Part shown: positions 1,226 to 52,414 of the stretch, piece by piece
How positions within the stretch are numbered: position 1 is the stretch's first letter
How the letters are laid out: the number at the start of each line of letters is the position of its first letter
Origin: Bolinopsis microptera
Taxonomy: Eukaryota; Ctenophora; Tentaculata; Lobata; Bolinopsidae
DNA length: 60,000 nucleotides
NCBI RefSeq assembly: GCF_026151205.1
Contig: NC_087084.1
Location: forward strand, 11,809,453 to 11,869,452
Direction of reading: 5' to 3'
Notes under the pieces: generated by a model
Told to the model about the DNA's origin: nothing
The model's database searches: none
The model's input: the letters and a program-made list of their open reading frames with translations, nothing else
Translations under genes and position numbers: made by a program

Positions 1226-4200
1226 ATGTCAATCGTTAGAGGCATTTCCAGAGTATGGGACATCGCACGTAACGTGAGTGGGTTTAACACCACTCAAGTC
1301 AACACCACTGTTAACCTGAACATCTCAGTTGGGAACACTATCGGAGACATCTCATATCTATCTGATATTTCTCAGGAAACTGAATATGATGATGATGATA
1401 AATCAGAACCTGCAGGCAGTCCTTCACCCTCCCCCCTTTACCTGACACCGACCTCGAAAGTACCAACAAGTAGAGGAACACCCCCGAGGAAACATGTCGA
1501 ACTGGACTACACATCCCCAGTGAGGACGAATTTCAAAAGCAGGTCACGCTCCAAATCTGAGAGCTCATACAGACGTGATCAGTACCACAAACCAACCCCA
1601 ACAGCTCTTTTGAAACGAAGACTCAAAGAAAAGATTGCGCTCGAAAGATCCGCGGCTTTCAACGAAACACCAGTCGCGAGGATGAGACATAACTCTGAAC
1701 CAACCACCACTACGATTTCCTCAAATGATTCACATAATCTCTCCTTTTCACAGGGAGGTGTTGGATGCACTAGAATAAGGGAAAGTGGCACTCACGACTG
1801 TGGCACCGACGGTGCCGGTATACATTTGGAAAATGATTTACTGAACACGAATAACCCATTCCGCTTGAATATGGGCAATATTTCTAAAGCGGTGGAAAGA
1901 GCTCTGTCAACTGACCTAATGCAGATTGACAACTCAAACCCGACAGTTACCATAACGTTCTGCCGAGAGGAGGTTGATCGAGTAACACGAATCAGTTCAC
2001 TGGACGAACATCCACGTGACCTGATCGAACAAAAGTCTCTCCTCTACCTGCTCGGTCAAATAAACCGTCACATGTCACGCACAACATCATGCAATCAGAA
2101 CTTTAACGGTCTAAAAATCACCAGCATGTCGGACAGAGCAAAACGAATGAAACTAGATGATGATAATTGCTACCCGCTTGGAATCTTGCATATCGGTAGG
2201 AGCAGGGGACTCGACCTGCTACCTAAACGTGCTGCCCGCTTATCACTCAACGTCTATGATGTCGAAATGAGAAACTGGTCGTTCTTAACTATATCTTCGA
2301 AAACTCGGGCATCTATGATACCAAGTTTTGCTCCCGAAAGGAAGTTTGAAATGCATATACCTGATTACCACATAGTTATCATTCCATGCAACAGTGATGA
2401 AGGCTGCAATTTGTCACGGTCTTGTCAAAATTGCGTAATTGTTGAAGATGGAAAAATACATGATGCCAGTGACGATCAGGCCGGGAAGGAGACCACATGC
2501 CATCAAGAAGAAACAATGGCGGAAGACAACAAAAAGTGTGTGATAGCTGAAAATAGCAAGAACGTCACAACAGAAGATGAAGAAAAGAAGACAGACTCTG
2601 AACCTTTTCACGAGAAGAAACTCTCAGCTCCTGATCATGCCGACTCTGACAGTGAGTACGATTCATGCGATCAAGAACCAGAGGACTCTGGAACAGAAAA
2701 AGTTGGAATTATGAATCACTCTGAAACTGACTCTATTTCAGAAAATGATGTCAATGTACCCAACGACAGAGATGATGAAGATGGATATCTCGCCCAAGAA
2801 CGTTCTTCAAATGTTGGTATCGCAGTCAATACAGAAACAGAAACAGATAAAGGAGAGGGAAGTGTTGCTGAGATTGCTGTGGCCCCAAATGAGAAACAGG
2901 TCAATGACGAACTTAAGATGGGTAAGGTAGAGGTGACAAATCTGCCGGAGGAGACAGAGCAGGAAACAGCAGGAGTTGGTAACCCTCCGCAATCTGACTC
3001 TTTACCTGGCAGTAATGACAATAACAGTAAGATTACAAACATTACCATTCCGACCCCATTCTTACAAAACAACGCCCACGAAGAAGTTGTCAGATTAAGG
3101 AACGGGGCCGTGGTTAAAGGTTGGCTAAAAGAGTGCAACATAAAATGTTACAACAAAACGGCAGACTGGAGCCGAGTGTATTTCATTGAGTACCTGGGCA
3201 ATGTGGCATCAAGTAACTCTCCGTTGCAAAACAGTGTTACAAGTGATAGATATGCCCTTCACCCGAAAGTTATCAAAGAACTGATCGTATACCTGACAGA
3301 CGATGCAGTAGTGAAAGAACTTAGCGCTCGAGGTGCATCTATCGCCGGAACGCCTGAAAAGAGAAAAAACAAGCTCACAGGTCTGTTCATTGATCTATAC
3401 GGTGCCAATAAAAGCCCGGTCAAAAACAAAAATGCTAAGAAGGGGAAACATGGGAAGAAAGGAAAGACGAAGTTGGGCCAGAACCACAAAGACGACTATA
3501 CTAGTACAGAACCGGTCTGTGCACAGCCTGGCCCTGGAATAAAGACAACCATAATTAAGCAAACACCTGAGTCTCATGATATTAACGCAACAATACTAAG
3601 TGTTGTAGAAAGCCCCCTAAAAACGCTGGAAAATTGTATGCTGAAGCTAGATGATCGGTTATTAAAGCAAGAAAGTATGGTTGCAGCACTATCGAAGAAG
3701 ATGGATGCCATAATACGAAACCCACTTAAAAACAACACTGAAATCGCTGAACGCTTCCACCTTCTGGAAGAAAATGATAAGACCCTATTCATCAATATCA
3801 AAGCGCTAAATACGGATAGTCAACGGTGCTCTGAAGAGACCCTGAAAAAATTTAACTCAATAGCCCAAACGGTTGATAAGTTGGAGTCCTTGGTTAACAT
3901 CTCTCCAAAGCCTGTCCTCTGCTCTTGTCACTGTGATGCAGAAAAAAGCCGAGATTTAAAAATGAATAGTCCCCTTAAAACAGCAACCATCTGCCGCTCA
4001 CAGGATGCCGACTCTCAACGAGAAACTGTAACAAATGAAATTTTAACCCATGAAGAAACTGGTCCATTTACAGTGGATATCGGCGTCCAGACAGAAACCC
4101 TAAGAAACAGTTTATCTACAAGTCCGTCGACGACGGATAGTTGCGCCCAGACAGAAACAACTGTGTACGAGATTGCAACTCAAACCGAAGAAATGATCCC

Positions 4201-5239
4201 TCATTCTCTGAACAGTGCAAATGAAACAGCCGATATGGAGGAACCATCTGCTGACGACATTGAAAGAATCACCTTTGGCCTGCAACAACTTATAGAGTCA
4301 GTTAAAGATAAAGAAAAGATGATAATGGATCAGCTAAGCGACTTTACTTGTGAGCCAAATCAAAATGATACCATAAATTGTCTGCAACAACTCTTAAGCG
4401 CAACTAGAGATAAAGAAAAGGCGATATCAAAGGAAGTTGAGTCAAATCACGATGAAACCATTCATAAGTGCTCATCATCTACCACGTTGTACTCGGAGAT
4501 ATTAGAGGTTAATGCGGAACCTACGGCGTCGATAATTGACCAACCTCCAGGCGAGGCTGAAGGGAATTTGCATGAAGCATCTCCCGAAGTAACTCATAAA
4601 CCACAACAAGCATCACTCACAAAGTCAAGTCACGAGTATCAAAGAAAAAAGAAAGTACTCCTAGTGTATGATTCTTACCATGAAGACTTCGACCAGCGAA
4701 AATTCTCCAGAAGTTATGATATTAAAAAAGTGCAATACAGCTCAGTTAGTGACTTAGTGGAAAAACAGAAGCTCATATCCGAAATCAAAAGCTTCAACCC
4801 TGAGATAATCTTTATTCACTTGGGAATAAATGACATCAAGAGGGGGCTAACGTTCCCCACTTTCATAAGAAACTTTAAAAGTATCCTTCGATTGGCCTTA
4901 GAAGAAACCAATTGCAAGATATGTTACTCGCTCATAATACCAACACCAGGTAACCCTAACCTCAACACAAAGATTCAAGCTGCCAACCAATATATGGGTG
5001 ACTTTATAAAATGGCTCAGAGAAGAGAACTACTATGAAGACCGAATATGCACAGTCGGTAATGACAACCTCAGCGGCTACTTGGAGAGATATGTTACAAA
5101 AGACGGTGAAGCACTGAGACTTTCGCCCAAGGGTTTAGCTAAACTATGGCTCAGATGCCGAGATGCCCTTAATAGAACGTCAACCCTAACTAGGCAAACT
5201 TTACATGAGTTCACCCGAAGCAACGATCATAATGAATAA
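1226..5239 (+). CDS. LINE ORF1 protein with SAP-like region, coiled coil and C-terminal SGNH-hydrolase-like domain
   Basis: A 1337-residue protein. Residues 1-250 are Ser/Thr-rich and disordered, with basic patches. About 400-600 is very acidic. About 690-730 looks like a SAP motif (AVVKELSARGASIAGTPEKR), followed by a Lys-rich tract that could bind nucleic acid. About 790-880 is heptad-like and probably coiled coil. Residues about 1140-1325 match an SGNH/GDSL esterase fold: a DS pair at 1149-1150, GIND at 1200-1203, and DG..LRLSPKG at 1293-1303. ORF1 proteins of CR1-group LINEs often carry such an esterase. Here the expected catalytic His of the last block is absent (an Arg and a two-residue insertion), so activity is doubtful. 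Such proteins bind element RNA. The start is the first Met of the open frame; the 3' end overlaps ORF2 by 35 bases. Confidence 0.8.
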   Translation: MSIVRGISRVWDIARNVSGFNTTQVNTTVNLNISVGNTIGDISYLSDISQETEYDDDDKSEPAGSPSPSPLYLTPTSKVPTSRGTPPRKHVELDYTSPVRTNFKSRSRSKSESSYRRDQYHKPTPTALLKRRLKEKIALERSAAFNETPVARMRHNSEPTTTTISSNDSHNLSFSQGGVGCTRIRESGTHDCGTDGAGIHLENDLLNTNNPFRLNMGNISKAVERALSTDLMQIDNSNPTVTITFCREEVDRVTRISSLDEHPRDLIEQKSLLYLLGQINRHMSRTTSCNQNFNGLKITSMSDRAKRMKLDDDNCYPLGILHIGRSRGLDLLPKRAARLSLNVYDVEMRNWSFLTISSKTRASMIPSFAPERKFEMHIPDYHIVIIPCNSDEGCNLSRSCQNCVIVEDGKIHDASDDQAGKETTCHQEETMAEDNKKCVIAENSKNVTTEDEEKKTDSEPFHEKKLSAPDHADSDSEYDSCDQEPEDSGTEKVGIMNHSETDSISENDVNVPNDRDDEDGYLAQERSSNVGIAVNTETETDKGEGSVAEIAVAPNEKQVNDELKMGKVEVTNLPEETEQETAGVGNPPQSDSLPGSNDNNSKITNITIPTPFLQNNAHEEVVRLRNGAVVKGWLKECNIKCYNKTADWSRVYFIEYLGNVASSNSPLQNSVTSDRYALHPKVIKELIVYLTDDAVVKELSARGASIAGTPEKRKNKLTGLFIDLYGANKSPVKNKNAKKGKHGKKGKTKLGQNHKDDYTSTEPVCAQPGPGIKTTIIKQTPESHDINATILSVVESPLKTLENCMLKLDDRLLKQESMVAALSKKMDAIIRNPLKNNTEIAERFHLLEENDKTLFINIKALNTDSQRCSEETLKKFNSIAQTVDKLESLVNISPKPVLCSCHCDAEKSRDLKMNSPLKTATICRSQDADSQRETVTNEILTHEETGPFTVDIGVQTETLRNSLSTSPSTTDSCAQTETTVYEIATQTEEMIPHSLNSANETADMEEPSADDIERITFGLQQLIESVKDKEKMIMDQLSDFTCEPNQNDTINCLQQLLSATRDKEKAISKEVESNHDETIHKCSSSTTLYSEILEVNAEPTASIIDQPPGEAEGNLHEASPEVTHKPQQASLTKSSHEYQRKKKVLLVYDSYHEDFDQRKFSRSYDIKKVQYSSVSDLVEKQKLISEIKSFNPEIIFIHLGINDIKRGLTFPTFIRNFKSILRLALEETNCKICYSLIIPTPGNPNLNTKIQAANQYMGDFIKWLREENYYEDRICTVGNDNLSGYLERYVTKDGEALRLSPKGLAKLWLRCRDALNRTSTLTRQTLHEFTRSNDHNE

Positions 5240-6227: not shown

Positions 6228-7766
6228 TTACTGCAATTTAAAATTGGTTGGAGTCCAGGTATCTTTTAAGTCAGCTGCCTGTGATTGTACTAATAGTGCT
6301 TTGGTTCTCAATTTTATCAAGTTAATGGAAGTTTCTAGGCAATTGCTTGAAGTTAAAATTTTTTTATGAACTGTGTTCCAAAGCTTGGCTGCATTAAACA
6401 AAAAGGTATTTGATTTATTTAGAAGAATAACAGTTAGACTCGTTGCACGGTTTGAAATGTTGATGGCCTCATAAAGGGAGTAGGGGCAGTGGTACTTGAT
6501 AATCTTAGAGAATTCTAAAATGCAGTGATATTTGTACAAGTTTTGAGCCGTTAGAATTTTTAGTCTATTAAAAATGGGTTTTGTATGCTCCTTTTCAAAG
6601 TGTTTATGGTCTAATTTTTGCATACCATACGGTCTAGTACGTGCACATGTTGATTGTTTATCTAAATATGAGTCGAGATCACCAAAAAGGATCCTTACAC
6701 AGTGCTTCTGTGTGATAAAAAGACTGTCATTTGATCGTTCTTTAAGGACAACGCCCCAAACACTTATACCATAACTGAGATGTGATTCAAAGAGAGCATT
6801 ATATATTTTCAAATATAGTTCACCAGGTATCGAGTGTCGAATTCTACAGATTGCACCAGTCATGGACCGAAGTTTTTTACGAATGTAGTGCATATGGGCA
6901 GCCCAGTTTAACTTACTATCTATAACAATACCTAGGAATTTGGTATCCTTGACTTTAATCATAACCTTACCATCGATGAATATTGACCTAGACTCATCTA
7001 GCAGGTTAGCAAATGGTCTGGTCCTTGCACAGGTCTCATCATATTCAGAGGCAGGTTTAAAATGGGTGTAGCAACATTTAGACATATTGATATGGAGTAG
7101 ATTACATTTCATGTAAATCGACACATGTTTAAGAACTAAGTTTGCTTTTTTGTATGTTGCTTCTCTAGATGGTCCTGATATAAAGATATTAGTGTCATCA
7201 GCATAAAGTACAAATTTCACCTCACTGTCAGAAAAACAGTTCACTATATCGTTCATATACAGTAGGAAGAGTAACGGCCCTAGAATTGACCCCTGTGGTA
7301 CCCCAAATTTCACATCCAGTGTTTCTGATGGTACATCGTTATACATAACATACTGCTTTCTGTTAGTCAAATAGCTTTTAAGTAAGGTAAGTGCTGTGCC
7401 CCTAATACCATAGGAGTTTAATTTGCTTAGAAGAATGTTGTGGTCAAGGGTGTCGAAGGCTTTGCTTAAGTCAATGAATATTCCTAAGACATGTTTATTG
7501 CCAGCTAGAGTCTTTGTAACGGAGTCTATAGATTTGTGTAGAGCATGAGTGGTGGAATGACCTTTTCTAAATCCAAACTGTGAGTCTGTCAGTACACCTT
7601 TAGATGTGAAGAAATTATAGAGCCGTTTGTAAATGATCTTCTCGAAAATTTTTCCAAATAAAGGTAATATTGATACAGGCCGATAGTTTTCGATACATTC
7701 CTTATTGTCTTTCTTGTAAATGGGAATAACTTTACCAGTTTTAAAAATAGTCGGGAATGTACACAT
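6228..7766 (-). pseudogene. LINE reverse transcriptase, 5'-truncated (Jockey/CR1-group type)
   Basis: An open frame of 512 codons with the RT blocks in order: KTGKVIPIYKKDNK, ENYRPVSILPLFGKIFEK, QFGFRKGHSTTHAL, FIDLSKAFDTLDH (first catalytic Asp), FGVPQGSILGPLLFLLY, and FVLYADDTNIF (catalytic Asp pair, plus-strand bases about 7190-7210). The thumb-like and C-terminal parts follow (KFLGIVIDSKLNWAAH, LSYGISVWG). CARTRP occurs twice in the C-terminal half. The endonuclease and any ORF1 are missing because the 5' end is cut at about 7768. The first Met is simply the first in the open frame; there is no reason to think it is a natural start. Confidence 0.85.
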
Positions 7767-7768
7767 AT

Positions 7769-10700
7769 AATTCCTCTTATAAAGTCAGGATGAAGAGTCT
7801 TGGAGTTGAGGAGAATACTCTTGAAGCTCTTCTCCACTTTATCGGAGAGCAACTTGGTCACTCTGAAATCATGCTAGTAGGTGACCTAAATGCTCGTACA
7901 GGTGGTGTCAACTTCATCCCAGTGACAAAAGACTGGATGAAAAAGAAGAAATCGAATGCACCCAGACCTTGCCGAGCCAGTAAAGATTCTGTACTAAATG
8001 AAAGAGGTAATAGATTCCTTGACCTTCTGGGCAGCTGTGACCTCACTCTATTGAACGGCAATGTCATTGGTGACATTTTTGGTGAGCTCACCTGCTATCA
8101 GTACAACGGACAAAGTGTCGTTGACTACATAGCAGTTTCACCGAGCATCAGGAATATGGTAAAACGGTTCAAAGTTCTTTCCTTAACTAACCTATCAGAT
8201 CACAGACCTATCCTCTGTCAACTCTCAGTTAGAATCCAAATGATAGCCGCTGAATTAATTCAAGAGCTTCATCAAGATGCACCTAAAAGACCGAAATGGG
8301 ATGGAGATGCAACGGCCCAACAGTTTACTGATAATCTTAACAAGGCCGAAATAACAAATCAGCTATTGGATATTTCGACCTCAACTCTTGATACAGTAGA
8401 AAACATCTACTCCACGAACAAGAAGTTCGTTCACATTCTTGAAAGCGCACTTTGCACCGATCAACCCTCAAACTGTGCCAATAGTGAGCAAAAGATAAGG
8501 TGTTTTTCTAAAAAGAAACGACGCAGTAAACTCCGCCCAAAACAAAAGTGGTTCGATGCTGAGTGCATTACAACTAAGCGAGAGCTTAATATTCTAACAA
8601 GGAAGTACGGGAAAAACCCCTCGGACGCCCTTCTACGAATCCGCTTCTACTCTAGGAAGAAGGACTATAAAAAATTGTTAAAAAGGAAAAAGGCTGTTTT
8701 CTTCCAAGAGTTAAACCAGGAAATTCTGCAGGAAAATAAGATTTCGTGGAAGAACTTGAAGAAACTGAAGAAGTTTAACGAAAAACCCTCCAAGCTGGAC
8801 ATATTCGACATGGCGAAGTTCTACCAATTCTTTCTGGATCTCTACAAAAAGAAGGATACAAACTTCCCACAGAATAGAACAGTGACTAAAGCAAATGAAC
8901 AAATAATGAGCATACTAAATGATGAGATATCATCGAAAGAGGTTGTACATGCGGTGAAAACACTTAAGAACGGTAAGGCAGTTGGACTAGATTGTTTACT
9001 CAATGAGCAGCTTAAGTCTGCCGCCCAGAACCACTGCGCTCTCTCAGTGTTAGTTAAGCTCTTTAATGGTTGCTTGGACCTTGGTGTCTACCCATGGAAC
9101 ACTACGATTGTGAGCCCACTCCACAAGAAAGGATGTATCTACGACCCCGACAACTACAGAGCCATTGCGATCGGGAGCAACCTTGGTAAACTTTTCGCGA
9201 CAATCCTATTGGACCGTTTGCTAAAATTCAGGAAGGAACATTGCCCGGACACAGTAAACCAGCTTGGCTTCTGTAAGAATGCTAGAACTGTGGATCATCT
9301 GTTCACCCTTTCCACTTGTGTAGACAAATACGTGAATAACAAAGGACAAAGACTCTACTCTTGTTTCGTGGATTTTCGCAAAGCTTTCGACTCCATCAGT
9401 CGTGAAGCTCTTCTGTACAAGCTCTCAACCCTTGGTATAGATGGAAAATTCCTAAAATGTCTAGAACATATGTACAAGAATTCCAAAGCTAAGATCAAGC
9501 TGATCGCTAAAATATCAGACTCATTTGATATTCTTGCAGGTACGGAGCAGGGCCACCCAATGAGCCCCGAACTATTCAAAACTTACATCCATGAACTTTC
9601 GGAACGACTGAACAGTGTTCAAGACATCTCAAGTCCATTGCTGAATGAAACTATTCTGACCCACCTCTTGTGGGCAGATGATCTTGTCCTCCTCGCACTT
9701 TCGAAAGAAAGTCTTCAGGTCATGATCTCTGAACTTGAGTCATTCTGCAGAGAATGGGGGCTCACGGTGAACACCAAGAAAACCGCCATCATGATTTTTA
9801 ATAAAAGTGGAAGGCAACTCAAAGAGAGTTACGGTTTTCAGTACATGGGAGCAACAATCCCATCAGCGAAAACATATTGCTATTTAGGGATCACCTTCTC
9901 ACTGTCGGGCAGCTTTAAGACAGCACTAAACCTTCTACGACAAAAAGCTCTCCGGGCATACTTTGGACTGAAAAGTGAAGTAGACCTTAACAATATATCC
10001 AAGGTCGCAGTTCTTAAACTGCTCGACTCCCTCATACTGCCAGTTGTATCGTACGGAGTGGAAGTCTGGATCAGCAGTAGCTCAGGAATAAAGGCGTTTG
10101 CCAGCACAACTGACAATACGAAGCAATCCCCACTGGCAGGCATTGCAGCTGACCCATTCGAAAGAATGCACCTCGCCATCCTTAAATGGACCCTTGGAGT
10201 TGGCAAATCTACATCCAACGCAGCTGTTTGGGGAGACTGCGGAAGAACCCCTATTGTAGTTCGATATGTTAAACAAGTCACCGATTTCCATAATCGCCTT
10301 GCAAGACTTGAACTAGAAGACTCACCAGCCCTAGCCAGGCACGCTTTTGCTGAGCAGAAGAAACTTGATTTAGGTTGGTTCAGAGCACTGGAATCAATGC
10401 TAATGATACTCGACGAGAACAAACTTGAACATCAACTTTACAACCCATTGTTATGTCAGGAAAGGGCACATAACCGATTTATCAATCTATGGGAAACAGA
10501 AAGACAAACCAATAAGAAGCTTACGTTCAATAATAAAGTTAAAGGTGCTTTCGAGCAGGAGCCGTACCTCACGCTACCGTCGAGAACTGGAAGCAACTTA
10601 GTGGCTAGGATCCGAATGAGCGGACATAAGCTAAACGTAGAAACTGGAAGATATGGGAGCAGAACTGGAAGTCAACATCACAGAATTTGTGAATTCTGCA

Positions 10701-10951
10701 GCGAAAAGTCCATGATGGAGCTCTTTGTTAATCTTCCTTGTGTTGATCCGATAATAGAAGATGAAGAACACTTCCTTAGAACATGTCCCAGGTACCATTC
10801 CAGTAGGACTAACATGAAGGAGCCCACAAAGTCATTACTATTTCATGACATGAAGAGCCTCTTTCTACCGGAGCACATAGTGGAATTCACCAAGTTCGTC
10901 GCTCAGCTGTGCAGAACACGATTCCCTATAAAGAAGAAACACGAACATTAG
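7769..10951 (+). pseudogene. LINE ORF2, 3' piece: rest of endonuclease, reverse transcriptase and C-terminal Cys/His motif
   Basis: This continues the ORF2 cut at about 5650. It opens with the second half of the endonuclease (MLVGDLNARTG; later SVVDYIAVS and LSDHRPILCQL, the SDH block of APE nucleases). A basic linker follows, then the RT: NGKAVGLDCLLNEQLK, NYRAIAIGSNLGKLF, CFVDFRKAFDSI, GTEQGHPMSPELF and LLWADDLVLL, with catalytic Asp residues at about codons 641-642 counted from 7757. The tail has CEFC followed much later by EEHFLRTCPRYH, a zinc-binding CCHC pattern common at LINE C termini. Together with the 5' piece, ORF2 would be about 1.2 thousand residues, a normal length. The clade was not settled; the WADD box and tail differ from the inserted minus-strand LINE. 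Confidence 0.85.
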
Positions 10952-28781: not shown

Positions 28782-29301
28782 GGGTTTTTTTTTAAAAACT
28801 TTTTTTAAAGAAAAAACTTTTTTTTGCGCGGCTTGTCCCAATTGAATCAAGTTTATACTCGCGTGCTGCGAGTATAAAAATTAGGTAAAATCAAGACCGA
28901 AAATCTTTACCCCCGTAGTGCATTTATGTTCCGGGGTAGGTGGAACATGTTTTGGTGGTTAAATTGTAAATAGTTAGTACTTGTCCCAAACCATCAGAAA
29001 AACCGAGTTTCGACCTCCCAACCCACTCAGGCCACTCCCAGGGGGCAGGGGCCACGCCCATCCCAAAATTACTGAAAATTAGGTAAAATCAAGACCGAAA
29101 ATCTTTACCCCCGTAGTGCATTTATGTTCCAGGGTAAGTGGAACATGTTTTGGTGGTTAAATAGTTAGTACTTGTCCCAAACCATCAGAAAAACCGAGTT
29201 TCGACCTCCCAACCCACTCAGGCCACTCCCAGGGGCCACGCCCATCCCAAAATTACTGAAATCCAGGTAAAATCAAGACCAAAAATCTTTACCCCCGTAG
29301 T

Positions 29302-31665
29302 AGTAGTATATGATGCATTTTTCAATAGCCATTTTGGGAAAAAGTGGGGCACACATAATGAAAGTAAGCATATTACGTAATGTTACCGGCGGCGTCCTTG
29401 TAACTTGTGTGATATCATGTTCCATGTGGAAGCTATATTGGATGTAACTTGATTATTATGTCATGTTCATTGCTCACAGTACTTTTGTGATCTTATCTTG
29501 TCTCGATCTTACCAGATTAGAGCGGGCCACAGTTAAGTTATAATGTGCAATTATTAATGACGGGTATTATTATTAATGACGGGTATTATTATTATTAATA
29601 ATGGGTATTATTAATAATGACGGGTATTATTATCAATGACGGGTATTATTATTAAGACGGGTATCATTATTAATGACGGGTATTATTATTATTAATGACG
29701 GTATCATTATTATTAATAATGACGGGTATTATTATTAATGACGGGTATTATTATTAATGACGGGTATTATTATCAATGACGGGTATTATTATTATTAATG
29801 ACGGGTATTATTATTAATGACGGTATTATTAATAATGACGGGTATTATTATTAATGAATGGTATTATTATTATTAATGACGGGTATTATTATTATTAATG
29901 ACGGCCACGGGTATTATTATTAATGACGGTATTGTTAATAATGACGGGTATTTTTATAAATGACGGGTATTATTGTTAATGACGGGTATTTTTATTATTA
30001 ATGACGGGTATTATTATTTTAGTGACGGGTATTATTATTATTAATGACGGGTATTATTGTTAATGACGGGTATCATTATTAATGACGGGTATTATTATTA
30101 TTAATGACGGTATCATTATTATTAATAATGACGGGTATTATTATTAATGACGGGCATCATTATTAATGACGGTATTGTTAATAATGACGGGTATTATTGT
30201 TAATGACGGGTATTATTATTATTAATGACGGGTATTATTATTATTAATGACGGGTATTATTGTACAAGTCACAAATAATAATAATAATAATAACCGTCAC
30301 TAAAAATAATAATTCCCGTCATTAACAATAATACCCGTCATTAATAATAATACCCGTCATTATTAACAATACCGTCATTAATAATAGTACCCGTCATTAA
30401 TTATAATACCCGTCATTAATAATAATACCCGTCATTAACAATAATACCCGTCATTAATAATAATAACCGTCACTAAAATAATAATACCCGTCATTAATAA
30501 TAATAATACCCGTCATTAACAATAATACCCGTCATTTATAAAAAATACCCGTCATTATTAACAATACCGTCATTAATAATAGGGTAATATTATTAATGAC
30601 GGGTATCATTATTAATGACGGGTATTATTATTAATGACGGTATTGTTAATAATGACGGGTATTATTGTTAATGACGGGTATTATTATTTTTAGTGACGGG
30701 TATTATTATTATTATTATTTGTGACTTGTACAATAATACCCGCCATTAATAACAATACCCGTCATTATTAACAATACCGTCATTAATAATGATACCCGTC
30801 ATTAATAATAATACCCGTCATTATTAATAATAATGATACCGTCATTAATAATAATAATACCCGTCATTTATAAAAATACCCGTCATTATTAACAATACCG
30901 TCATTATTAACAATACCGTCATTAATAATAATACCCGTCATTAATAATAATAATACCCGTCATTAATAATAATAATACCATTCATTAATAATAATACCTG
31001 TCATTAATAATAATACCCGTCATTAATAATAATATCTGTCATTAATAATAATATTCGTCATTAATAATAATACCCGTCTTAATAATAATACCCGTCATTG
31101 ATAATAATACCCGTCATTATTAATAATACCGTCATTAATAATAATACCCGTCATTAATAATAATAATACCCGTCATTAATAATAATACCCGTCATTAATA
31201 ATAATACCCGTCATTATTAATAATAATGATACCGTCATTAATAATAATAATACCCGTCATTAATAATGATACCCGTCTTAATAATAATACCGTCATTGAT
31301 AATAATACCCGTCATTATTAATAATACCCGTCATTATTAATAATACCCGTCATTATTAATAATACCCATTATTAATAATAATCCCCGTCATTAATAATAA
31401 TACCCGTCATTAATAATGGCACATTATAACTTAACTGTGGCCCGCTCTAATCTGGTACGATCGAGACACGATAAGATCACAAAAGTACTGTGAGCAATGA
31501 ACATGACATAATAATCAAGTTACATCCAATATAGCTTCCACATGGAACATGATATCACACAAGTTACAAGGACGCCGCCGGTAACATTACGTAATATGCT
31601 TACTTTCATTATGTGTGCCCCACTTTTTCCCAAAATGGCTATTGAAAAATGCATCATATACTACT
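29302..31665. mobile_element. 2364-bp element with 247-bp inverted repeats (AGT ends), 6-bp target duplication CGTAGT; Polinton-like ends
   Basis: The left arm 29302-29548 is inverted at 31419-31665 with two substitutions by eye. The ends begin AGTAGTATATGATGC. CGTAGT at 29296-29301 is repeated at 31666-31671, and the neighbouring tandem units show the uninterrupted site. Ends starting AG, long inverted repeats and a 6-bp duplication are what Polinton/Maverick elements show; IS3EU and Dada also make 6-bp duplications, so the assignment is tentative. There is no capsid, polymerase or integrase gene: the interior is only a short-repeat array. It would be a non-autonomous derivative. Confidence 0.85.
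29549..31418. repeat. Minisatellite of ~17-19-bp units in alternating orientation
   Basis: Units like GACGGGTATTATTATTAAT fill the interior of the AGT-ended element. Orientation runs forward (29549 to about 30250), inverted (about 30250-30585), forward (about 30586-30720) and inverted again to 31418. The joints at about 30248-30265 (TTGTACAAGTCACAAAT) and 30716-30733 (its inverse) are the same sequence reversed. This implies that a central block flipped by recombination between inverted repeats, or that the array grew in a hairpin. Confidence 0.92.
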
Positions 31666-32090
31666 CGTAGTGCATTTATGTTCCGGGGTAGGTGGAACAT
31701 GTTTTGGTGGTTAAATTGTAAATAGTTAGTACTTGTCCCAAACCATCAGAAAAACCGAGTTTCGACCTCCCAACCCACTCAGGCCACTCCCAGGGGCCAC
31801 GCCCATCCCAAAATTACTGAAATCCAGGTAAAATCAAGACCGAAAATCTTTACCCCCGTAGTGCATTTATGTTCGGGGTAGGTGGAACATGTTTTATTGG
31901 TTAAATAGTTAGTACTTGTCCCAAACCATCAGAAAAACCGAGTTTCGACCTCCCAACCCACTCAGGCCACTCCCAGGGTCCACGCCCATCCCAAAATTAC
32001 TGAAATCCAGATAAAATCAAGACCGAAAATCTTTACCCCCGTAGTGCATTTATGTTCCGGGGTAGGTGGAACATGTTTTGGTGGTTGTTT

Positions 32091-36400: not shown

Positions 36401-39232
36401 CTAAGCTCCGGCAGATTTAAAAAGTAGATGGTTACTATCAAGGGTGTTCATACCCCCAAACCGTTCAAGGGTTTTCAATTGGGTCTGGTAGAACCCCTCT
36501 CTAGCTTCCATAGCCTTTTCTTTGTCTGCTTTACTAATATTAGGCTCAAATACTAAAGCGTCTACTATAATGACAGAGAGGTGCTTACTAAGTGAGGAAT
36601 TATAGCAGGCTATGGTACTAAAATCTAAATCATGATCAATATCTAAAAAATGGTTAACTAATTTACAACTTCTTATACCTTTCTTTATGTGACTCTTATG
36701 GTTAGAGAATCTCTTAGGGAGATTTGAGGTAGTATAACCGACATACGACTGTTTACAAGTCTTACACTCCATTAAATAAATGAGGTTATAACTCTGACAA
36801 GATATATACTTAGTTATAGGGAAAACTTGTTTAGAATGGTGACTACTAAAATTGGAACAGGGGGACAGGAAATTTTGCTTACAAACATAACATTTACCAC
36901 AAGCATGGCACCCTGGGTCGACAGCCCCGGGAACCGCCCTTAGACTTTCGGAGTCTGGTTCCTGGATCTGGCTTGCAGTTGTTTCTCTCTCATTATCACA
37001 GTTTAAAGTTCCACTGGCACGGTACTTATTGTGTACAAGCATGCCACCGATAGTTTGATTCTTTCGATGACTCACGAATACACTGTCCGCACGTACCAGC
37101 TTCTTCAGGGCCGGATCAAGGTTGAGAAGGTGCTTATACTTATGGATAATGCCCCCCATGTTGGGAAGTGCTGGATTTTGATCCATCACCATGGGTATTA
37201 AACAGGCAGTCGACTCATCCTTGTCTTTAAGGGTATACAAGTTTTTCCTATTAGCTATATCACTAAATTTGTTAAAGGCATCTTCTATAATACTGGAATG
37301 ATAACCTCGGGCTAGAAGGTAACGTGTATAGACCTCTCTCTGCTCCAAGAAGTTAGTGTCTTCACTGTTGTTCTGTCTCACCCGCCTCGCCACTCCAAAA
37401 GGTATGTTTTTTACAACATGGTTCCTATGGCATGACGTGGGGATAAGGTAGCAGTGGGTGTCACTAGGTTTAGAGTAGAGTTTGGTGTGGACAACATCAC
37501 CAACAGCATAGACATAGGTGTCTAGAAACTCAACGCCGTCCCTAGAGTAGTCGTACGTAAACAAAAGGTTTGGGTGGATACTATTGAGCCATTCCATGAA
37601 TTGTAATAATTCCTCAACAGTACCGGGCCAAGCCATATAAATGTCATCACGTAATCTACCCCAGAATGCTGGTCTATGAGGCGGGTCATATTCTAGATCT
37701 CCTTCGTTAACTAAAATATCAATCTTATCCATAGCACAATCAGCATACTCACATGAGTTCTTAGGACCCATCGCTGCTCCACGCTCCTGGCGGTATGTTA
37801 TACCGTTAAATGAAGCAATGTTGTAATCAAGAGTAATTTCTAGTGCACTAATAATGCATTCTGTACTAAACAATTGATCACCACTACTCCTTTTATTCAG
37901 GTGCTTAGTGCATTGTTGGATCCCCATATCCCTAGGAATGTTGGTAAACATGTTAGATATATCGATGGCAACATGTATAACCTCCTTTCCCAACAATATG
38001 CTAGACTCGTTCAGGCTATCAATCTTCCTCAGAAAGTGAGGGGTATCAATAATTCTATAATTCAAAGTAGCCTTCTTCAATTCATACGCAGTCAAGGCAG
38101 AAAGGTTTTCAATGTATGAACCACAGCCGGTGGTAATCATCCTCCCAGGATACAAAGGTGGTTTGTGTGCCTTGGGATTCAGGTACATGTTTCCAGGCTG
38201 GTTAAGCTCAGTACATGGAATAACCCACTCCTTGACCTTCTTGGACATACCTAATTCATCTTTAAACTCAATTGTCCAATTCGAAATTTTATCAATCAAT
38301 TCTACAACTAAATCATCTACATTATTTACAATACTATATACAGATCTATCATTTAAATGTACACCTATTCGTTGAATATAATCTTCTTCACTAAGAAGGA
38401 AGAATCCTACTCCTTTATCGAATGGTCTGATTACAATGTCTTTCCAACCTTTGACTTCTTTGAGAGCTGCTCTGATGGGCGCAGCGATGTTATCTGGTGA
38501 GACGAATTTCTGAGTTGGCCTGTGGAGGTCTACTTCTGCTCTGCAGCATTTTATAAATGCCTCAAGTGCAGGGTTTTTACAAGATTCGAAAGTACGTGAT
38601 GCATCAGTCTTTATAAGACAACGTTCCATGTCAGTAACTCTCTTATCTGCTTTGTTGGGTCCACATTTAAAGCTATCAAATACAACTTTAGCTCTCATTT
38701 TAGAAAACCATCTACACAGATCGTTCTCGAAGCGGCTTAGATCTGGTAGGGGAGGTGTAGGTGCAAACTTGTGAGACAAGAAAAAGACATAGAGTTGCTC
38801 TTTACTAAGCTCTTTGTCTGTAAGATTTACAACTGTTCTGGACATGTTTTCCATTGACAAGTCTTCAACCTTGGGAAGAGTACCTTTGATTAACGTCCTC
38901 TGATGTCTGTGGGATGTGGTACGATTAATCTTTTTTCTCTTCCTTCTTCTCCTCTTCTTCACAGGTTTAGCATTATCCACATATGAAGGTGCAACATAAA
39001 TAGCATAGTCCTTATCTCTCTTCAACTTAGATTCATGACGCTTGGTTAGTTCAAGTTTCTCCTTGTGCATTAAATTAGATAAATGATTCTCTAAATTTTC
39101 ATGATCTGATGGGGGAAGTGCAGATTTGATGCAGTTTTTGAAACTATAAAAGCTTTTACGCATATATATTTGACCAAAACCCATAATCATGGGTAGAGTG
39201 GACCGCTGCCAGTGTCTCTCTTTCCCAAACAA
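36401..39232 (-). CDS. Penelope-like element polyprotein: reverse transcriptase plus GIY-YIG endonuclease
   Basis: An intact frame of 943 codons. The first ~23 residues come from the flanking hairpin repeat; a more natural start is MRKSFYSFK at about 39162. The N-terminal part is basic (KKRRRRKRKK). RT motifs include PFDKGVGFFLLS, LNPKAHKPP, VAIDISNMFTNIPR and RLRDDIYMAW, with the catalytic Asp pair at about residues 529-530. RDDI instead of YADD is the Penelope form. A Cys-rich knuckle CHACGKCYVC precedes a GIY-YIG nuclease: LIYLMECKTC, SYVGYTT, KRFSNHKSH (about 811-845). The CxxC knuckle is seen in endonuclease-bearing Penelope lineages. The protein copies RNA into DNA at a nick it makes. 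With no stops, this copy could be young. Confidence 0.93.
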   Translation of the reverse strand: MFGKERHWQRSTLPMIMGFGQIYMRKSFYSFKNCIKSALPPSDHENLENHLSNLMHKEKLELTKRHESKLKRDKDYAIYVAPSYVDNAKPVKKRRRRKRKKINRTTSHRHQRTLIKGTLPKVEDLSMENMSRTVVNLTDKELSKEQLYVFFLSHKFAPTPPLPDLSRFENDLCRWFSKMRAKVVFDSFKCGPNKADKRVTDMERCLIKTDASRTFESCKNPALEAFIKCCRAEVDLHRPTQKFVSPDNIAAPIRAALKEVKGWKDIVIRPFDKGVGFFLLSEEDYIQRIGVHLNDRSVYSIVNNVDDLVVELIDKISNWTIEFKDELGMSKKVKEWVIPCTELNQPGNMYLNPKAHKPPLYPGRMITTGCGSYIENLSALTAYELKKATLNYRIIDTPHFLRKIDSLNESSILLGKEVIHVAIDISNMFTNIPRDMGIQQCTKHLNKRSSGDQLFSTECIISALEITLDYNIASFNGITYRQERGAAMGPKNSCEYADCAMDKIDILVNEGDLEYDPPHRPAFWGRLRDDIYMAWPGTVEELLQFMEWLNSIHPNLLFTYDYSRDGVEFLDTYVYAVGDVVHTKLYSKPSDTHCYLIPTSCHRNHVVKNIPFGVARRVRQNNSEDTNFLEQREVYTRYLLARGYHSSIIEDAFNKFSDIANRKNLYTLKDKDESTACLIPMVMDQNPALPNMGGIIHKYKHLLNLDPALKKLVRADSVFVSHRKNQTIGGMLVHNKYRASGTLNCDNERETTASQIQEPDSESLRAVPGAVDPGCHACGKCYVCKQNFLSPCSNFSSHHSKQVFPITKYISCQSYNLIYLMECKTCKQSYVGYTTSNLPKRFSNHKSHIKKGIRSCKLVNHFLDIDHDLDFSTIACYNSSLSKHLSVIIVDALVFEPNISKADKEKAMEAREGFYQTQLKTLERFGGMNTLDSNHLLFKSAGA

Positions 39233-40705
39233 AAGGAAATGATATTAATTTGATTGACCGTTCTCAAATGCAAAATGATACCGAGAATGAAATCGGTCGC
39301 TCGCTTTTCCCATTCATTCACGGCTTACGAATTGTAATAAGTTTCGAATGATTACATCAATCAGATGCTGTAAAAATCTCTTTGGGTTGCGTTCGGGTCG
39401 ATACCTAGTATTTCGGGGTAAGGGTGGTAGTTATTACTTATTGAATTAGCTGAAGTTTATTGAATCTTTTTTGCCGAGTACAGCTGCCTTTGGGTAGTTC
39501 TTCTTAATCTATTACAATTGTAAATGAATGGGAAAAGCGAGCGACCGATTTCATTCTCGGTATCATTTTGCATTTGAGAACGGTCAATCAAATTAATATC
39601 ATTTCCTTTTGTTTGGGAAAGAGAGACACTGGCAGCGGTCCACTCTACCCATGATTATGGGTTTTGGTCAAATATCATCTCTTTTTGATTATAAAGTCAG
39701 GGTACTTTATAAAGTCGAAATATAAACTGATATCTTCATTAATAAGGAGGAAGTTTCAACAATTTCGAAATTTTTCCTTTAAAAACATTTCCTTGTGTTT
39801 AGGTAAGCATATCGGTCGATCACTGACTGAATATGCCACTTAATACTCATTCAAGTTGGCATTAAATTCATTTATAATGACATTAAACTGTCGTGGCAAA
39901 GCAGAATTTGTTGGAAATCACGAATGAGCAAAATTGTCACCTTTCGCACGTGCAAACATTGAGCGGACGTTGCGTGCGCATCCAATATTGAATCGCCGTA
40001 AATTTTTGCATGTAATTCTTTTATATATAGTTTGATAAGCATGCAAAGTTTCAAAGTATTTCAAGAAGAAATGTTATCACAACGGCACTCTAAAGTTGAC
40101 AGAAAATGACGAAAACAGCAATTTTTAGTGATTTTAGCAATTTTTTATCAATTTGGGCGTGTCTCCACGTGTGCAACTTTTCGATTTTTTACTTTAAAAC
40201 TAACCTAATGCACAATTTATACCTATAGGAAGCAGAACTGAGCTCCACAACCCAAGGCATGGCCCAACACCAGAGAATACTAAATCGCAAAATTGACGTT
40301 TTTATAAAATAATTCTTCAAAAAAGCACAAACTTCAATGACGAATATCTTTATGAAGGAGCAAGCTAGAAAAACTTTCCGGTAGATTTTCAGAATGCTTG
40401 AACAATTATCTAAGGTAAAAATTTCCTCAGATTTTGAATATAATTACTTTTTAATGGTGTAAAATCATTTTTAAAAGTTATTACTTTGTCAAAAATCAAG
40501 TTTTAAAAACGGTTAACTTGATGACGTCATCAAGGGGTGTTCATGACGTCAAATAATTTGTTTATACAATGTAAACTAAAGTGTAAACAATTATTTGCAA
40601 GACCTGTGGTCGGAAATGGCTGTATCTTTTATACTTTTGAATCTATGGACAATTAAATACAGGCTACAATTGACTGGCAAAGCGTCTATCCCTGAATATA
40701 TATAT
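39168..40705. repeat. Penelope-type terminal repeat, copy C, with 150-bp hairpin
   Basis: Nearly identical to copy A over its length. Inverted arms lie at about 39168-39320 and 39526-39675. It sits immediately upstream (on the element's own strand) of the Penelope ORF, which begins within the hairpin or at its edge. It ends GCGTCTATCCCTGAATATAT at about 40683-40702 and is followed directly by the next tandem repeat family. Confidence 0.88.
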
Positions 40706-46189: not shown

Positions 46190-47220
46190 TTTTCCAGAGA
46201 CCAGATCCAGTCTTAACCTTAAATTTGACATAACTCAATATAGCTGAAGTACTACTACTAGTAGCTCTGACTCTCTGATACGTCGGATTAGAACCTTTAA
46301 GACTGGCCTCCAGCTCGTCATTTTTGAGATTCAAGCAAATCGAGGATGTACAAAGGGTGTAAGATGTTCAGCTCGACAAAATACTGGTAGAAATTATTTC
46401 GTTGGCCCTAAAATAACTCCTCCAGATCCAGTTTTTACAATGTTACAGGACTATCGCAGGACTGTCTCAAGAAGTTGTAAGTTTATAAAGAAGCTTAACT
46501 TCTTTACAATACATCATCATTAGAGACAGAGTGTGTGGCCGGTGGTAACTCCCCACACCGGTCACCATGTATACAATAAATTAATGTCTCCATCAGGTCT
46601 CCAATACGGAGAGTTTAAGTTGCAATTACTTGATAAGATAATAAACCAGATGATGATACAAGTTTGATTGAGAGTTAACTGTGACTCTTTTTCATGAGGT
46701 GAGTCAAAGGAAGAATTGAACTTATTGGCACTTATAGCTAGTACCCCGTCGCTAGAGTTCACTTGAACATCATGTATCATGTATATTAAATACCAATTGT
46801 TTTCCAAGAAATGCCAAGAAATACAAAAGACCACCAGACTTTGAAGAGCTCGATCAACCTGAAGGTTTCTGGCTCTAACTTTAATGCGAGCCGATATTTC
46901 ACCCACTGATGACTGAAATGGCTAAAAGTGTGTTCATCAAATATCAATGCCTTTGAAATTCCATGATTTTTCAAATTCTTTCTAAAAAACTTACTTCTTC
47001 CATGTCTGGAGGTTTTTTTGTATTTCTTAGCATTTCTTGGAAAAACAATTGGTATGTTTTACCCATACTATTCAAGTGAAATCTAGCGACGGGGATCTTA
47101 CCAGAACTAATAAGCTAAATTCCTCCTTTAGCGCACCTTATGAAAAAGAGTCACAGTCAACTCTCCATCAAACTTGTATCTTTGTATTTCCTGGCACATC
47201 ATCCAGTTTATTATCTTATA
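46190..47220. repeat. Duplicated flanks of the pentraxin locus, in both orientations
   Basis: About 46195-46330 resembles 50575-50610 plus 50920-50990. About 46586-46815 copies the downstream flank of the pentraxin gene (52692-52920), including GAGAGTTTAAGTT, CTCTTTTTCATGAGGTGAG and CCCCGTCGCTAGA. About 47022-47220 is another copy in reverse. These are non-coding and degenerate; they show that the locus was duplicated more than once. Confidence 0.75.
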
Positions 47221-48170
47221 TGAAATGAAATGAAATGAAATGAAATGAAATGAAATGAAATGAAATGAAATGAAATGAAATGAAATGAAATGAAATGAAA
47301 TGAAATGAAATGAAATGAAATGAAATGAAATGAAATGAAATGAAATGAAATGAAATGAAATGAAATGAAATGAAATGAAATGAAATGAAATGAAATGAAA
47401 TGAAATGAAATGAAATGAAATGAAATGAAATGAAATGAAATGAAATGAAATGAAATGAAATGAAATGAAATGAAATGAAATGAAATGAAATGAAATGAAA
47501 TGAAATGAAATGAAATGAAATGAAATGAAATGAAATGAAATGAAATGAAATGAAATGAAATGAAATGAAATGAAATGAAATGAAATGAAATGAAATGAAA
47601 TGAAATGAAATGAAATGAAATGAAATGAAATGAAATGAAATGAAATGAAATGAAATGAAATGAAATGAAATGAAATGAAATGAAATGAAATGAAATGAAA
47701 TGAAATGAAATGAAATGAAATGAAATGAAATGAAATGAAATGAAATGAAATGAAATGAAATGAAATGAAATGAAATGAAATGAAATGAAATGAAATGAAA
47801 TGAAATGAAATGAAATGAAATGAAATGAAATGAAATGAAATGAAATGAAATGAAATGAAATGAAATGAAATGAAATGAAATGAAATGAAATGAAATGAAA
47901 TGAAATGAAATGAAATGAAATGAAATGAAATGAAATGAAATGAAATGAAATGAAATGAAATGAAATGAAATGAAATGAAATGAAATGAAATGAAATGAAA
48001 TGAAATGAAATGAAATGAAATGAAATGAAATGAAATGAAATGAAATGAAATGAAATGAAATGAAATGAAATGAAATGAAATGAAATGAAATGAAATGAAA
48101 TGAAATGAAATGAAATGAAATGAAATGAAATGAAATGAAATGAAATGAAATGAAATGAAATGAAATGAAA
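47221..48170. repeat. Pure TGAAA pentanucleotide array, 190 copies
   Basis: 950 bp of uninterrupted TGAAA (TTTCA on the other strand). It abuts the 3' end of the minus-strand LINE at 48171, so on the LINE's own strand it is a 3' TTTCA tail that has expanded. Simple-repeat 3' tails are usual for L2/CR1-type LINEs. Confidence 0.97.
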
Positions 48171-48522
48171 TGAGGTATTTATATCCCGCTCATATGATTA
48201 ACCAACAACACAAGGAATGTGGTTAACCATGTCAGAGCGGCTGACTGTGAGTGATTTGAGCAAGAGTGTTAAAAGTGAACTAAAGTATAACTCAGCATAA
48301 GGCAAAGACAAAATTAAAACATCTTTTATTGTAAACCACACTAAACTAAATAGAAGCATAAACCATACAGTACATGTAGGTATAATAAAGGTTAGTACAG
48401 TGACATAATCAATCAAGAAAGAATCAGATCCAAGTAAGTAAGAGATCAAGGCATAAAATGGAGTGCGGTAAAAAATAAAAGCCAATGTGTTTTGCAAAGT
48501 GAAGACAATGGAAAGAAAAACA

Positions 48523-50989: not shown

Positions 50990-51205
50990 ATTATACGGAG
51001 AGTTTAAGTTACAATTGTCTGATAATATAATAAACCGGATGATGTACCAGATGATACAAGTTTGATCGAGCAATTTGACGATCACATACTCGGATGTTAA
51101 CAAAAGAATGTAGTCCCATCATTGAACGACGTGCTGATATACAAGCAGCAAATCTTAAACTAACCCAGGGAACCAGCTGAGCTCACTTATCTTATTCACA
51201 ATCCA
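50990..51205 (+). promoter_or_regulatory. Upstream region of the pentraxin gene
   Basis: About 216 bases between a repeat copy and the start codon. TAATATAATAAACC at about 51021-51034 could serve as a weak TATA-like element, but there is no strong core promoter match. AATGTAGTCCCATCATTGAA (about 51107) to CTCACTTATCTTA (about 51182) is conserved in a second copy at 53850-53945, which lacks the gene. Confidence 0.4.
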
Positions 51206-52414
51206 ATGATGATCTCTCTGACAATTCTTCTCTCAGTGGTGGGACTAGCCGCCAGTGGCAGCGCCTGTGACACCAGCTACAACAAGATCATCAACTTCCC
51301 CGCTGCTAGCAACGCCAACTACATCAGCTTCAACCCTAAACTTCCTGCCCTGACTGGATTAACTGTGTGTGCTTGGAAGCAGGACACGGAGAATGGACAA
51401 GCTAGATTCTGGTTCAGCTACGCAGTTCCTGGAAACGATAACGAGATCATCTTGGGAGACGCATCGGGTGTTCACAGATTTTATGTGAGGAGAATCATGA
51501 CTAAATCTCCTGTGCTACCAGCTAATAAGGGCAAGTGGGTCCACGTGTGTGGTTCCTGGAACTCAGAGACTGGAAATGCCGTCATCAGTATCAACGGAAA
51601 AGCAGTCAACACTGTCGTGGTCAAGAAAGGAGAGGCTTTGACAGCAGGAGGTAATCTGGTTATCGGACAGGAGCAGGACAGTGTAGGAGGAGGGTTCAGC
51701 TCTGCCCAAGCCTACATTGGAAACCTCTACAACATCAACATGTGGGACAGAGCTCTCACTCAAGCTGAAATTACTTCTATCTTCAATGAAGGTATGTGTG
51801 GGATCTTCTTTGCTGGTTTGAGTGGTTCGGAACCCGTCATATCTTACGCTGATATTCTGGCCGAAGAAATGCATGGAGACGTATCCGTCGTTGATGGGGA
51901 GTGCGAAGTTGTCGAATGCCTCCCGGTTGAAGAATGCCCCCCGGTTAAAGAATGCCCCCCGGTTGAAAAATGCCCGGTTAAAGAGTGCCAAGCTTGTCCT
52001 GAACAAAAATGCCCAGCTCCTTTCTGTCCTGAAACAGAATGCCCTGAAAAAGAATGCCCTGAAAAAGAATGCCCTGAAAAAGAATGCCCTGCTGTCGAGG
52101 AATGCCCTGTTGTCGAAGAAATAGAATGCCCTGCAAAAGAAGAATGCTCTCTGCCTGCTAGAGATTGCCCCGGTATCGAACCTCACAAACCAGCCTGCTG
52201 GACGGCTCTAGAGGACACCAGGTTCAAGGACGATGTGAGCATTGGTCACATTGAGGGAGACATAAACGCAGCCAAGGCAGCATGTTACGCCAGCGGCACA
52301 TGCGAAGCTCTGACTTGTTCTGAGAGAAAAGGAGCAGTTTCATGTGAGCTGTTGACGTCATTCGGAAAAGAAAAGATAGGCAAAGGTATGACATCATTTG
52401 TTTACGCTTGTTAA
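51206..52414 (+). CDS. Secreted pentraxin-domain protein with Cys-Pro-Glu stalk and PAN/apple-like C terminus
   Basis: A single-exon gene of 402 codons. Residues 1-19 form a signal peptide (hydrophobic LTILLSVVGLAA). About 20-205 is a pentraxin-type lectin fold: the family signature HxCxS/TWxS is present as HVCGSWNS at 113-120, and GQEQDSVGGGF resembles the calcium-binding segment. About 231-322 is a low-complexity stalk of CPxxE units, with three perfect 15-base copies of CPEKE, probably heavily disulphide-bonded. About 323-402 (ACWTALEDTRFKDD to SFVYAC) has four to six cysteines and the size of a PAN/apple-like module. Pentraxins bind carbohydrate or microbial ligands in a calcium-dependent way; a defence or adhesion role is inference. 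It starts at the first of two adjacent Met codons. Unlike its repeat-rich surroundings, the coding part is GC-richer and intact. Confidence 0.93.
   Translation: MMISLTILLSVVGLAASGSACDTSYNKIINFPAASNANYISFNPKLPALTGLTVCAWKQDTENGQARFWFSYAVPGNDNEIILGDASGVHRFYVRRIMTKSPVLPANKGKWVHVCGSWNSETGNAVISINGKAVNTVVVKKGEALTAGGNLVIGQEQDSVGGGFSSAQAYIGNLYNINMWDRALTQAEITSIFNEGMCGIFFAGLSGSEPVISYADILAEEMHGDVSVVDGECEVVECLPVEECPPVKECPPVEKCPVKECQACPEQKCPAPFCPETECPEKECPEKECPEKECPAVEECPVVEEIECPAKEECSLPARDCPGIEPHKPACWTALEDTRFKDDVSIGHIEGDINAAKAACYASGTCEALTCSERKGAVSCELLTSFGKEKIGKGMTSFVYAC

Follow-up and report, generated by a model that had tools for sequence, protein, structure and literature searches.

An element of 2364 bp, filled with a minisatellite and devoid of genes, is here interpreted as a non-autonomous derivative of the Maverick/Polinton type that would have arisen through fold-back copying, twice, and been integrated in trans (probability of about 0.7). 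Its membership of the Mavericks/Polintons is well supported, and the fold-back step is one that we infer. The element lies in a window of 60,000 nucleotides, meaning the whole stretch of DNA analysed (G000:C13:11809453-11869452, in a genome of 264.65 Mb), and its parts are listed in Table 1.

The terminal 247 bases of the element are identical in inverted orientation at 245 positions. A chance inverted repeat can be discarded as their source: when 57 random 247-mers of the window were compared without gaps, in inverted orientation, with the sequence up to 10 kb away, the best identity had a median of 0.39 and a maximum of 0.69. The ends, AGTAGTATATG...CATATACTACT, fit the (AGT)2...(ACT)2 motif, and the flanks carry CGTAGT on both sides, an exact 6-bp duplication. 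The surrounding DNA is a tandem repeat of ~183 bp, in which the uninterrupted target site CCCCCGTAGTGCATTTATG occurs at 28910, 29108, 31853 and 32036, that is, as four empty sites. A six-frame scan of the element gave no ORF of at least 60 aa. Its interior is a single array of ~19-bp units in orientation blocks of +33, -15, +6 and -29, and inverted symmetry spans the whole element, with 86.5% identity over 2451 alignment columns against its own reverse complement (84.4% over 2473 columns under another scoring). The original prediction of a real, gene-free transposon with Polinton-like ends, 247-bp inverted repeats starting with AGT, a CGTAGT duplication and an empty site in the neighbouring repeats is therefore borne out, with exact coordinates, by the ends, the 6-bp duplication and the larger relatives with the same ends. 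Its description of the interior as a flipping minisatellite was right about the ~19-bp units in alternating blocks, which are better read as the outcome of repeated palindrome formation, and missed the symmetry of the whole length.

Table 1. Parts of the element, in window positions, and the lineage B elements with two polymerase frames, in genome coordinates
Feature	Position	Strand	Basis or remark
Left target-site duplication copy, CGTAGT	29296..29301	.	Flank reading, empty sites
Palindromic non-autonomous Maverick/Polinton-type element, entire	29302..31665	.	End and self alignment
Left terminal inverted repeat, starts AGTAGTATATGATGC	29302..29548	+	245/247 against the right end
Array block A, 33 GACGG units	29550..30259	+	Repeat and orientation reading
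Junction J (TTGTACAAGTCACAAATAATA...), read as first fold-back point	30260..30292	+	Also at the centre of palindrome L010
Array block B, 15 inverted units	30294..30571	-	Orientation reading
Block B/C junction, read as second fold-back point	30572..30597	.	
Array block C, 6 units	30598..30699	+	Orientation reading
J', inverted mirror copy of J	30701..30733	-	Inverted J 20-mer at element position 1413; rest by eye
Array block D, 29 inverted units	30759..31417	-	Repeat and orientation reading
Right terminal inverted repeat, finishes ...CATATACTACT	31419..31665	-	Comparison with the left end
Right target-site duplication copy, CGTAGT	31666..31671	.	Flank reading
Three lineage B elements with two polymerase frames	C7:6690411-6705670; C9:662254-674315; C9:6594451-6608817		12-15 kb

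Other features were also observed in the window. The pentamer ATGAA is repeated over 954 bp (47220-48173; about 191 copies, 100% match by TRF) with unusual homogeneity, and an ORF with a pentraxin domain followed by a Cys-Pro-rich repeat segment (51164-52414; PF00354, E 4e-35) holds 15/18-bp tandem repeats in its coding DNA. On the minus strand, a 947-aa frame with a GIY-YIG domain (PF01541) at its C-terminus (36401-39244) looks, on our own reading, like a Penelope-type retroelement. Frames in two regions (1181-5239 and 7751-10951) resemble those of non-LTR retrotransposons; one has a GDSL-esterase-like match at its C-terminus that falls short of the family cut-off, and the other has an endonuclease together with a reverse transcriptase.

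The terminal 20-mer has 12 exact forward and 13 exact reverse matches in the genome. Forward/reverse pairing of these 25 matches defines 10 element-sized loci of 2.0-24 kb and leaves five unpaired matches, including one at C9 2.466 Mb. Seven of the 10 loci are palindromes (six of nine with a duplicated locus counted once). L010 is a palindrome of 2.0 kb, L011 one of 2.7 kb with one stretch lacking a match to its mirror, and L015 one of 4.9 kb with 97% identity over its full length, whereas others carry additions to their right ends: about 6.6 kb of extra sequence, of no assigned identity, in L012, and a 1.2-kb insert in L013, which otherwise resembles the window element. The L015 insertion is found again, together with a nested element, in L016/L017; the two loci (C13 16.16 Mb and C13 13.62 Mb) represent one palindrome insertion in an inverted duplicated locus, of which the L016/L017 copy later gained an element of a second lineage, B, with the duplication TCTTAG, at a site that is empty in L015. 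The non-palindromic loci are L009, with 541-bp ends and an interior of 19-bp and 57-bp arrays, L014, with an internal deletion, and the 24-kb, gene-bearing L018-L020, with other insertions. Simple internal deletion, which is the case of L014, is discarded as the origin of the window element, itself an inverted duplication. In the polymerase-bearing L020 the array runs in a single orientation only.

Polymerase exons are present in same-ended or close copies of this lineage, here called A (L014, L018-L020, L033-L036), and their frames are read as a putative family-B polymerase split by introns. The first exon (718-745 aa) has C2H2-like fingers and an exonuclease-like region, the second (224-285 aa) a weak PDDEXK_11 match, and the 3' exons read ...LEMDT / SDSLYLAVSG..., which on our own reading of motif and splicing may be taken as a DTDS motif cut by an intron. 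On its own, the 718-aa exon has no match to PF03175. An alignment of 11 lineage A frames against the lineage B polymerase reaches an hhalign probability of 96.6 (E 5.6e-10, 570 columns), and the lineage B polymerase matches PF03175 (E 1.5e-9). Protein priming in these lineages would follow from the polymerase family. Downstream of the polymerase, the gene-bearing copies carry the minisatellite, then a 359-aa zinc-finger ORF and then, at the right end, a 169-aa ORF that duplicates the N-terminal part of the polymerase in diverged form (28%, E 2e-18). A search of IMG/VR for relatives of the two polymerases and of the integrase discussed below was negative. Among phage families, the lineage B polymerase found a weak DNA polymerase match (0.002) and the integrase found transposases, with nothing for the lineage A exon or the 169-aa ORF. 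Sequence searches of the PDB yielded one zinc-finger match for lineage A, zinc fingers, a weak endonuclease VII match and one chance-level match for lineage B, and retroviral-type integrases for the integrase.

These genes bear on whether the element might belong to another superfamily (IS3EU, Dada or another transposon with 6-bp duplications) and merely resemble Polintons. Short end motifs may converge and an integrase is absent between the same ends, but the same-ended copies hold family-B polymerase exons, and 63 of the 82 listed ORFs of at least 50 aa, in two gene-bearing copies, show no transposase domain, which makes this origin very improbable. The ORFs scanned, from L035, L036 and L014 (19 ORFs of L014 and the retroelement part of L035 being set aside), had no integrase (rve), transposase, ATPase, capsid or protease domain in Pfam, from which capsid models may be missing; a Mutator model reached no better than E 0.025 against one polymerase exon, which falls short of its cut-off. 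The IS3EU or Dada-type transposase named in the original prediction as the outcome that would speak against a Polinton is thus absent from these 63 ORFs, as judged by general Pfam domains for a DDE transposase between the same ends. Of the polymerase and integrase that it expected there, the same ends do flank parts of a family-B polymerase, whereas none of the 22 end-defined elements contains any of 93 integrase matches.

Integrases do occur elsewhere in the genome. A 283-aa stretch with an rve match (2.9e-13) lies about 5 kb from PolB pieces and, from these neighbours and its sequence, is on our own reading probably a Maverick-type integrase. With this stretch as query, an integrase is found within 25 kb of four of the seven distant (36-41%) A-type polymerase matches listed, one at 24.6 kb and the other three at 6.2-9.0 kb, and nine of the 21 distant (about 40%) B-type matches listed, but none of the close matches listed (0 of 10 for A, 0 of 15 for B). 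This count compares 36 integrase places, drawn from the 93 matches after setting aside LTR-like and fragment rows (none of them inside the 22 elements, by eye), with 17 of 63 lineage A rows and 36 of 89 lineage B rows, same-locus pieces and small fragments being left out, as was an A locus of 49-50% identity (C13 13.67 Mb), itself lacking a neighbouring integrase match. Since the searches scored the best candidates (150 of 394 for PF00665, 137 of 272 for the integrase query), absence near a locus is no proof. In the copies at C9 6.18 Mb and C1 5.57 Mb, a right-end-type ORF, an integrase and a polymerase follow in this order on one strand; a 263-aa ORF upstream of the right-end-type ORF in the C9 copy (L056) gave no convincing match. 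Another integrase-bearing relative lies at C13 2.75 Mb. With no integrase in or near them, the close A and B lineages seem to have lost theirs or never to have had one, and integration would be supplied in trans.

Palindromes recur beyond the loci with exactly the same ends. The 169-aa ORF has 58 matches in the genome, of which 18, at 32% identity or less, were taken as polymerase exons and removed, leaving 40 copies or fragments. Half of these (20/40) make up 10 inverted pairs with spacings of 1.7-10.2 kb, always in the order (-,+) and never (+,-), and the rest comprise two near pairs on the same strand and 16 single copies. Six loci chosen from the inverted pairs (L037-L042) are palindromes of 5.3-8.3 kb with two further families of ends (AGTAGTATGTCAGGG and AGTAGTGTATGAGGG) and an arm identity of 95.7-99.8%, which varies with the stretch aligned. 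This choice biases them towards palindromes, and the counts free of bias are 7/10 for the exact ends and 20/40 for the right-end ORF. At G000 C4:10347331-10360565, four copies of the polymerase 3' exon follow one another as -,-,+,+, which may reflect a palindrome of a tandem duplication.

The second PolB lineage, B, has different ends (AGTAGTATGTAATATRGTACC), found seven times in each orientation and all pairing, in elements of 7.7-15.3 kb. In three of these elements, two intact 1261-aa polymerase frames lie in opposite orientation (Table 1), and the frame that was scanned contains a segment resembling endonuclease VII; the element nested in L016/L017 has one full and one partial polymerase copy. 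These four, being those of the seven elements whose flanks were seen, all show exact 6-bp duplications. Relatives of the window element within this genome show that such palindromic by-products arose repeatedly.

Exact 6-bp duplications also flank 14 of the 18 lineage A loci read to both ends: the window element, L009, L010, L013, L014, L015, L016/17, L018/20, L035/36, L037, L038, L039, L040 and L041, with the single insertion of L015 and L016/17 entered twice. In L010, the right duplication is recognisable once a lineage B element inserted in its right edge is discounted. As for the remaining loci, L033/L034 (C9 2.45 Mb) shows, by eye, a 6-bp duplication only on the assumption that one AGT has been lost from its left end, five of six positions match in L042, and the flanks of L011 and of L012, mismatched within each locus, match between the two loci once inverted (GGTATA, CGTATA), which would fit recombination between neighbouring copies that gave an inversion. 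These two loci, both palindromic, adjoin at G000 C8:3423494-3436178 with their flanking duplications exchanged. At a further locus (C2 1.11 Mb, L043/L044), where ORFs were read, element ends were not found.

Long palindromes are a familiar artefact of some long-read libraries, and inverted chimeric reads in the library or assembly might be invoked for such structures. This is, of all the explanations considered, the least credible: left and right flanks differ, at many loci the duplications directly abut the element, the arms have diverged by substitutions, and L015 and L016/17 agree in the duplicated locus.

The most likely pathway would start with a polymerase that copies a linear extrachromosomal form of the element, beginning at the ends. 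Now and then, the copied strand or the displaced one would turn back on itself, mostly in the array, and be copied to its own end, resulting in a molecule with two right ends, i.e. a palindrome. Being shorter and keeping both origins, it could replicate parasitically in the manner of a defective-interfering genome. Finally, a trans-acting integrase would insert the palindrome, making the 6-bp duplication. In the case of the window copy, the first fold would have occurred at J, as in L010, and the second about 300 bp beyond J, producing the order A-J-B/C-J'-D.

In 12 of the 13 lineage A palindromes read, the centre lies in the minisatellite array, which in gene-bearing copies separates the polymerase gene from the ORFs of the right end; L037 has its centre within the 3' end of that gene, where about 30 nt lack a mirror counterpart. 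The array is no obvious hairpin hot spot, a role that was considered and rejected because single strands of the array from gene-bearing copies show nothing unusual in their folding (z -0.75 and +3.38). Well into the array, the arms differ by few substitutions (matches/substitutions of 952/3 in L010, 2354/10 in L015, 3484/10 in L039, 2848/1 in L040 and 2406/4 in L041), which indicates that they derive from one parent or from identical sisters; aligning the entire arms leaves many gaps in L011, L012, L037 and L042, with 233-2531 gap columns.

Between the arms, the unmirrored bases (left + right) number 8+53 in L010, 124+0 in L039, 162+1 in L015, 341+33 in L040, 9+466 in L041 and 753+9 in L038, that is, totals of 61-475 nt in the first five and 762 in the last. 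In the window element, 153 nt are unmirrored beside the second junction, and blocks B and C are unequal, with 15 versus 6 units. These unequal array lengths and the long one-sided stretches at the centres of L038, L041, L040 and L015 would also be expected if two sister linear molecules had broken in the array, been joined head to head by end joining and then been integrated. A fold-back far upstream has the same geometry, so that sequence alone cannot separate the two, but fusion requires two breaks and a joining step, and the centre of L037 is slightly more like a fold-back loop; a sister fusion is accordingly regarded as unlikely.

L010 contains J once, at its centre, whereas in the window element and L013 the second junction is flanked by J on one side and its mirror copy J' on the other; the first 1275 bases of the window element are 89.3% identical to the first 1293 of L010. 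On the simplest reading, the window element would be a second-generation palindrome, derived from an L010-like palindrome refolded about 300 bp past J. The four-block structure is common to the window element and L013, at different sites and with different duplications (CGTAGT vs ATTATG), which indicates that the palindrome itself transposed.

On the other hand, palindromes might arise without extrachromosomal replication if gap repair or ectopic conversion within the chromosome copied one end and its internal sequence onto the other end (TIR1-F1-F1-TIR2). Target duplications would remain intact, and an extension of terminal inverted repeats (TIRs) in this way has been proposed for Galileo (PMC3573991). 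The four-block palindrome at two sites speaks against gap repair as the full explanation, given that palindromes also move once formed, as does inverted doubling in two polymerase lineages. The ends themselves are a further argument against it: the two ends within one element are 95.5-100% identical (12 elements), left ends of different elements 80.8-99.6% (duplicated locus aside), and in 11 of the 12 elements, again with the duplicated locus aside, the identity within the element is higher than the best identity with another insertion. Only the window element departs from this, with 99.2% within and 99.6% to L010. Gap repair is thus held to be rather improbable, and fold-back copying of an extrachromosomal form remains the preferred pathway.

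A wider scenario, put forward tentatively and with somewhat less than even confidence, joins these observations. Two Maverick-type lineages without integrase would be specialised in replication only, borrowing integration from integrase-bearing cousins, and both would breed palindromes, of which the window element would be a second-generation, gene-free example and a record of fold-back errors. The owner of the integrase, the owner of the polymerase and the palindrome would then form a layered parasitism similar to that of a virus, its satellite and a defective-interfering genome.

In the literature searched, which comprised partial listings and few subscription journals, no description of palindromic or gene-free Polinton/Maverick derivatives was found. 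We know of no observed replication intermediates of Mavericks/Polintons, whose mode of replication has been deduced from their polymerase. Palindromic derivatives with clean target duplications could be a trace of that replication, since they suggest a linear copy outside the chromosome, a strand of which is able to fold back and still be integrated. They would make the protein-primed model, integration supplied in trans and an economy of the defective-interfering type testable in an animal-type genome, and their formation would explain the flipping minisatellites that fill such elements.

Among known systems, MITEs are gene-free, keep their ends and duplication and are presumably moved in trans, and they mostly arise by internal deletion from cut-and-paste transposons. 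The window element is similarly gene-free with ends and duplication retained, but it is an inverted duplication of one end. Defective-interfering or snap-back genomes occur in protein-primed viruses such as adenovirus, and these short palindromes keeping both origins offer a possible analogy, although the window element is a chromosomal transposon copy, known here from its sequence alone.

Foldback, Galileo and Tetris elements share with the present ones long inverted repeats made of tandem repeats, gene-poor copies and TIR extension by recruiting internal sequence (PMC3573991, PMC4079207). However, Galileo belongs to the P superfamily, whereas here the ends, the duplication length and the polymerase are of the Maverick type and entire elements are palindromic; the same-ended relatives carry this polymerase, and no P- or Mutator-type transposase was found in the ORFs of them that were scanned. 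According to PMC3573991, expansion of inverted repeats has also been reported for Polintons, with Jurka et al. 2007 among the sources cited there. Vertebrate Mavericks have (AGT)2...(ACT)2 ends and 6-bp duplications (PMC8097293), and Mavericks/Polintons measure 15-20 kb (PMC4028283). Unlike them, the window element is 2.4 kb long, gene-free and a full-length palindrome; its nearest relatives with a polymerase are free of integrase matches over 25 kb, and the scanned ORFs gave no capsid domain. Like them, it has the end motif, the 6-bp duplication and long inverted repeats, with a family-B polymerase of the protein-primed type in its same-ended relatives and integrases near some of the distant relatives of that polymerase.
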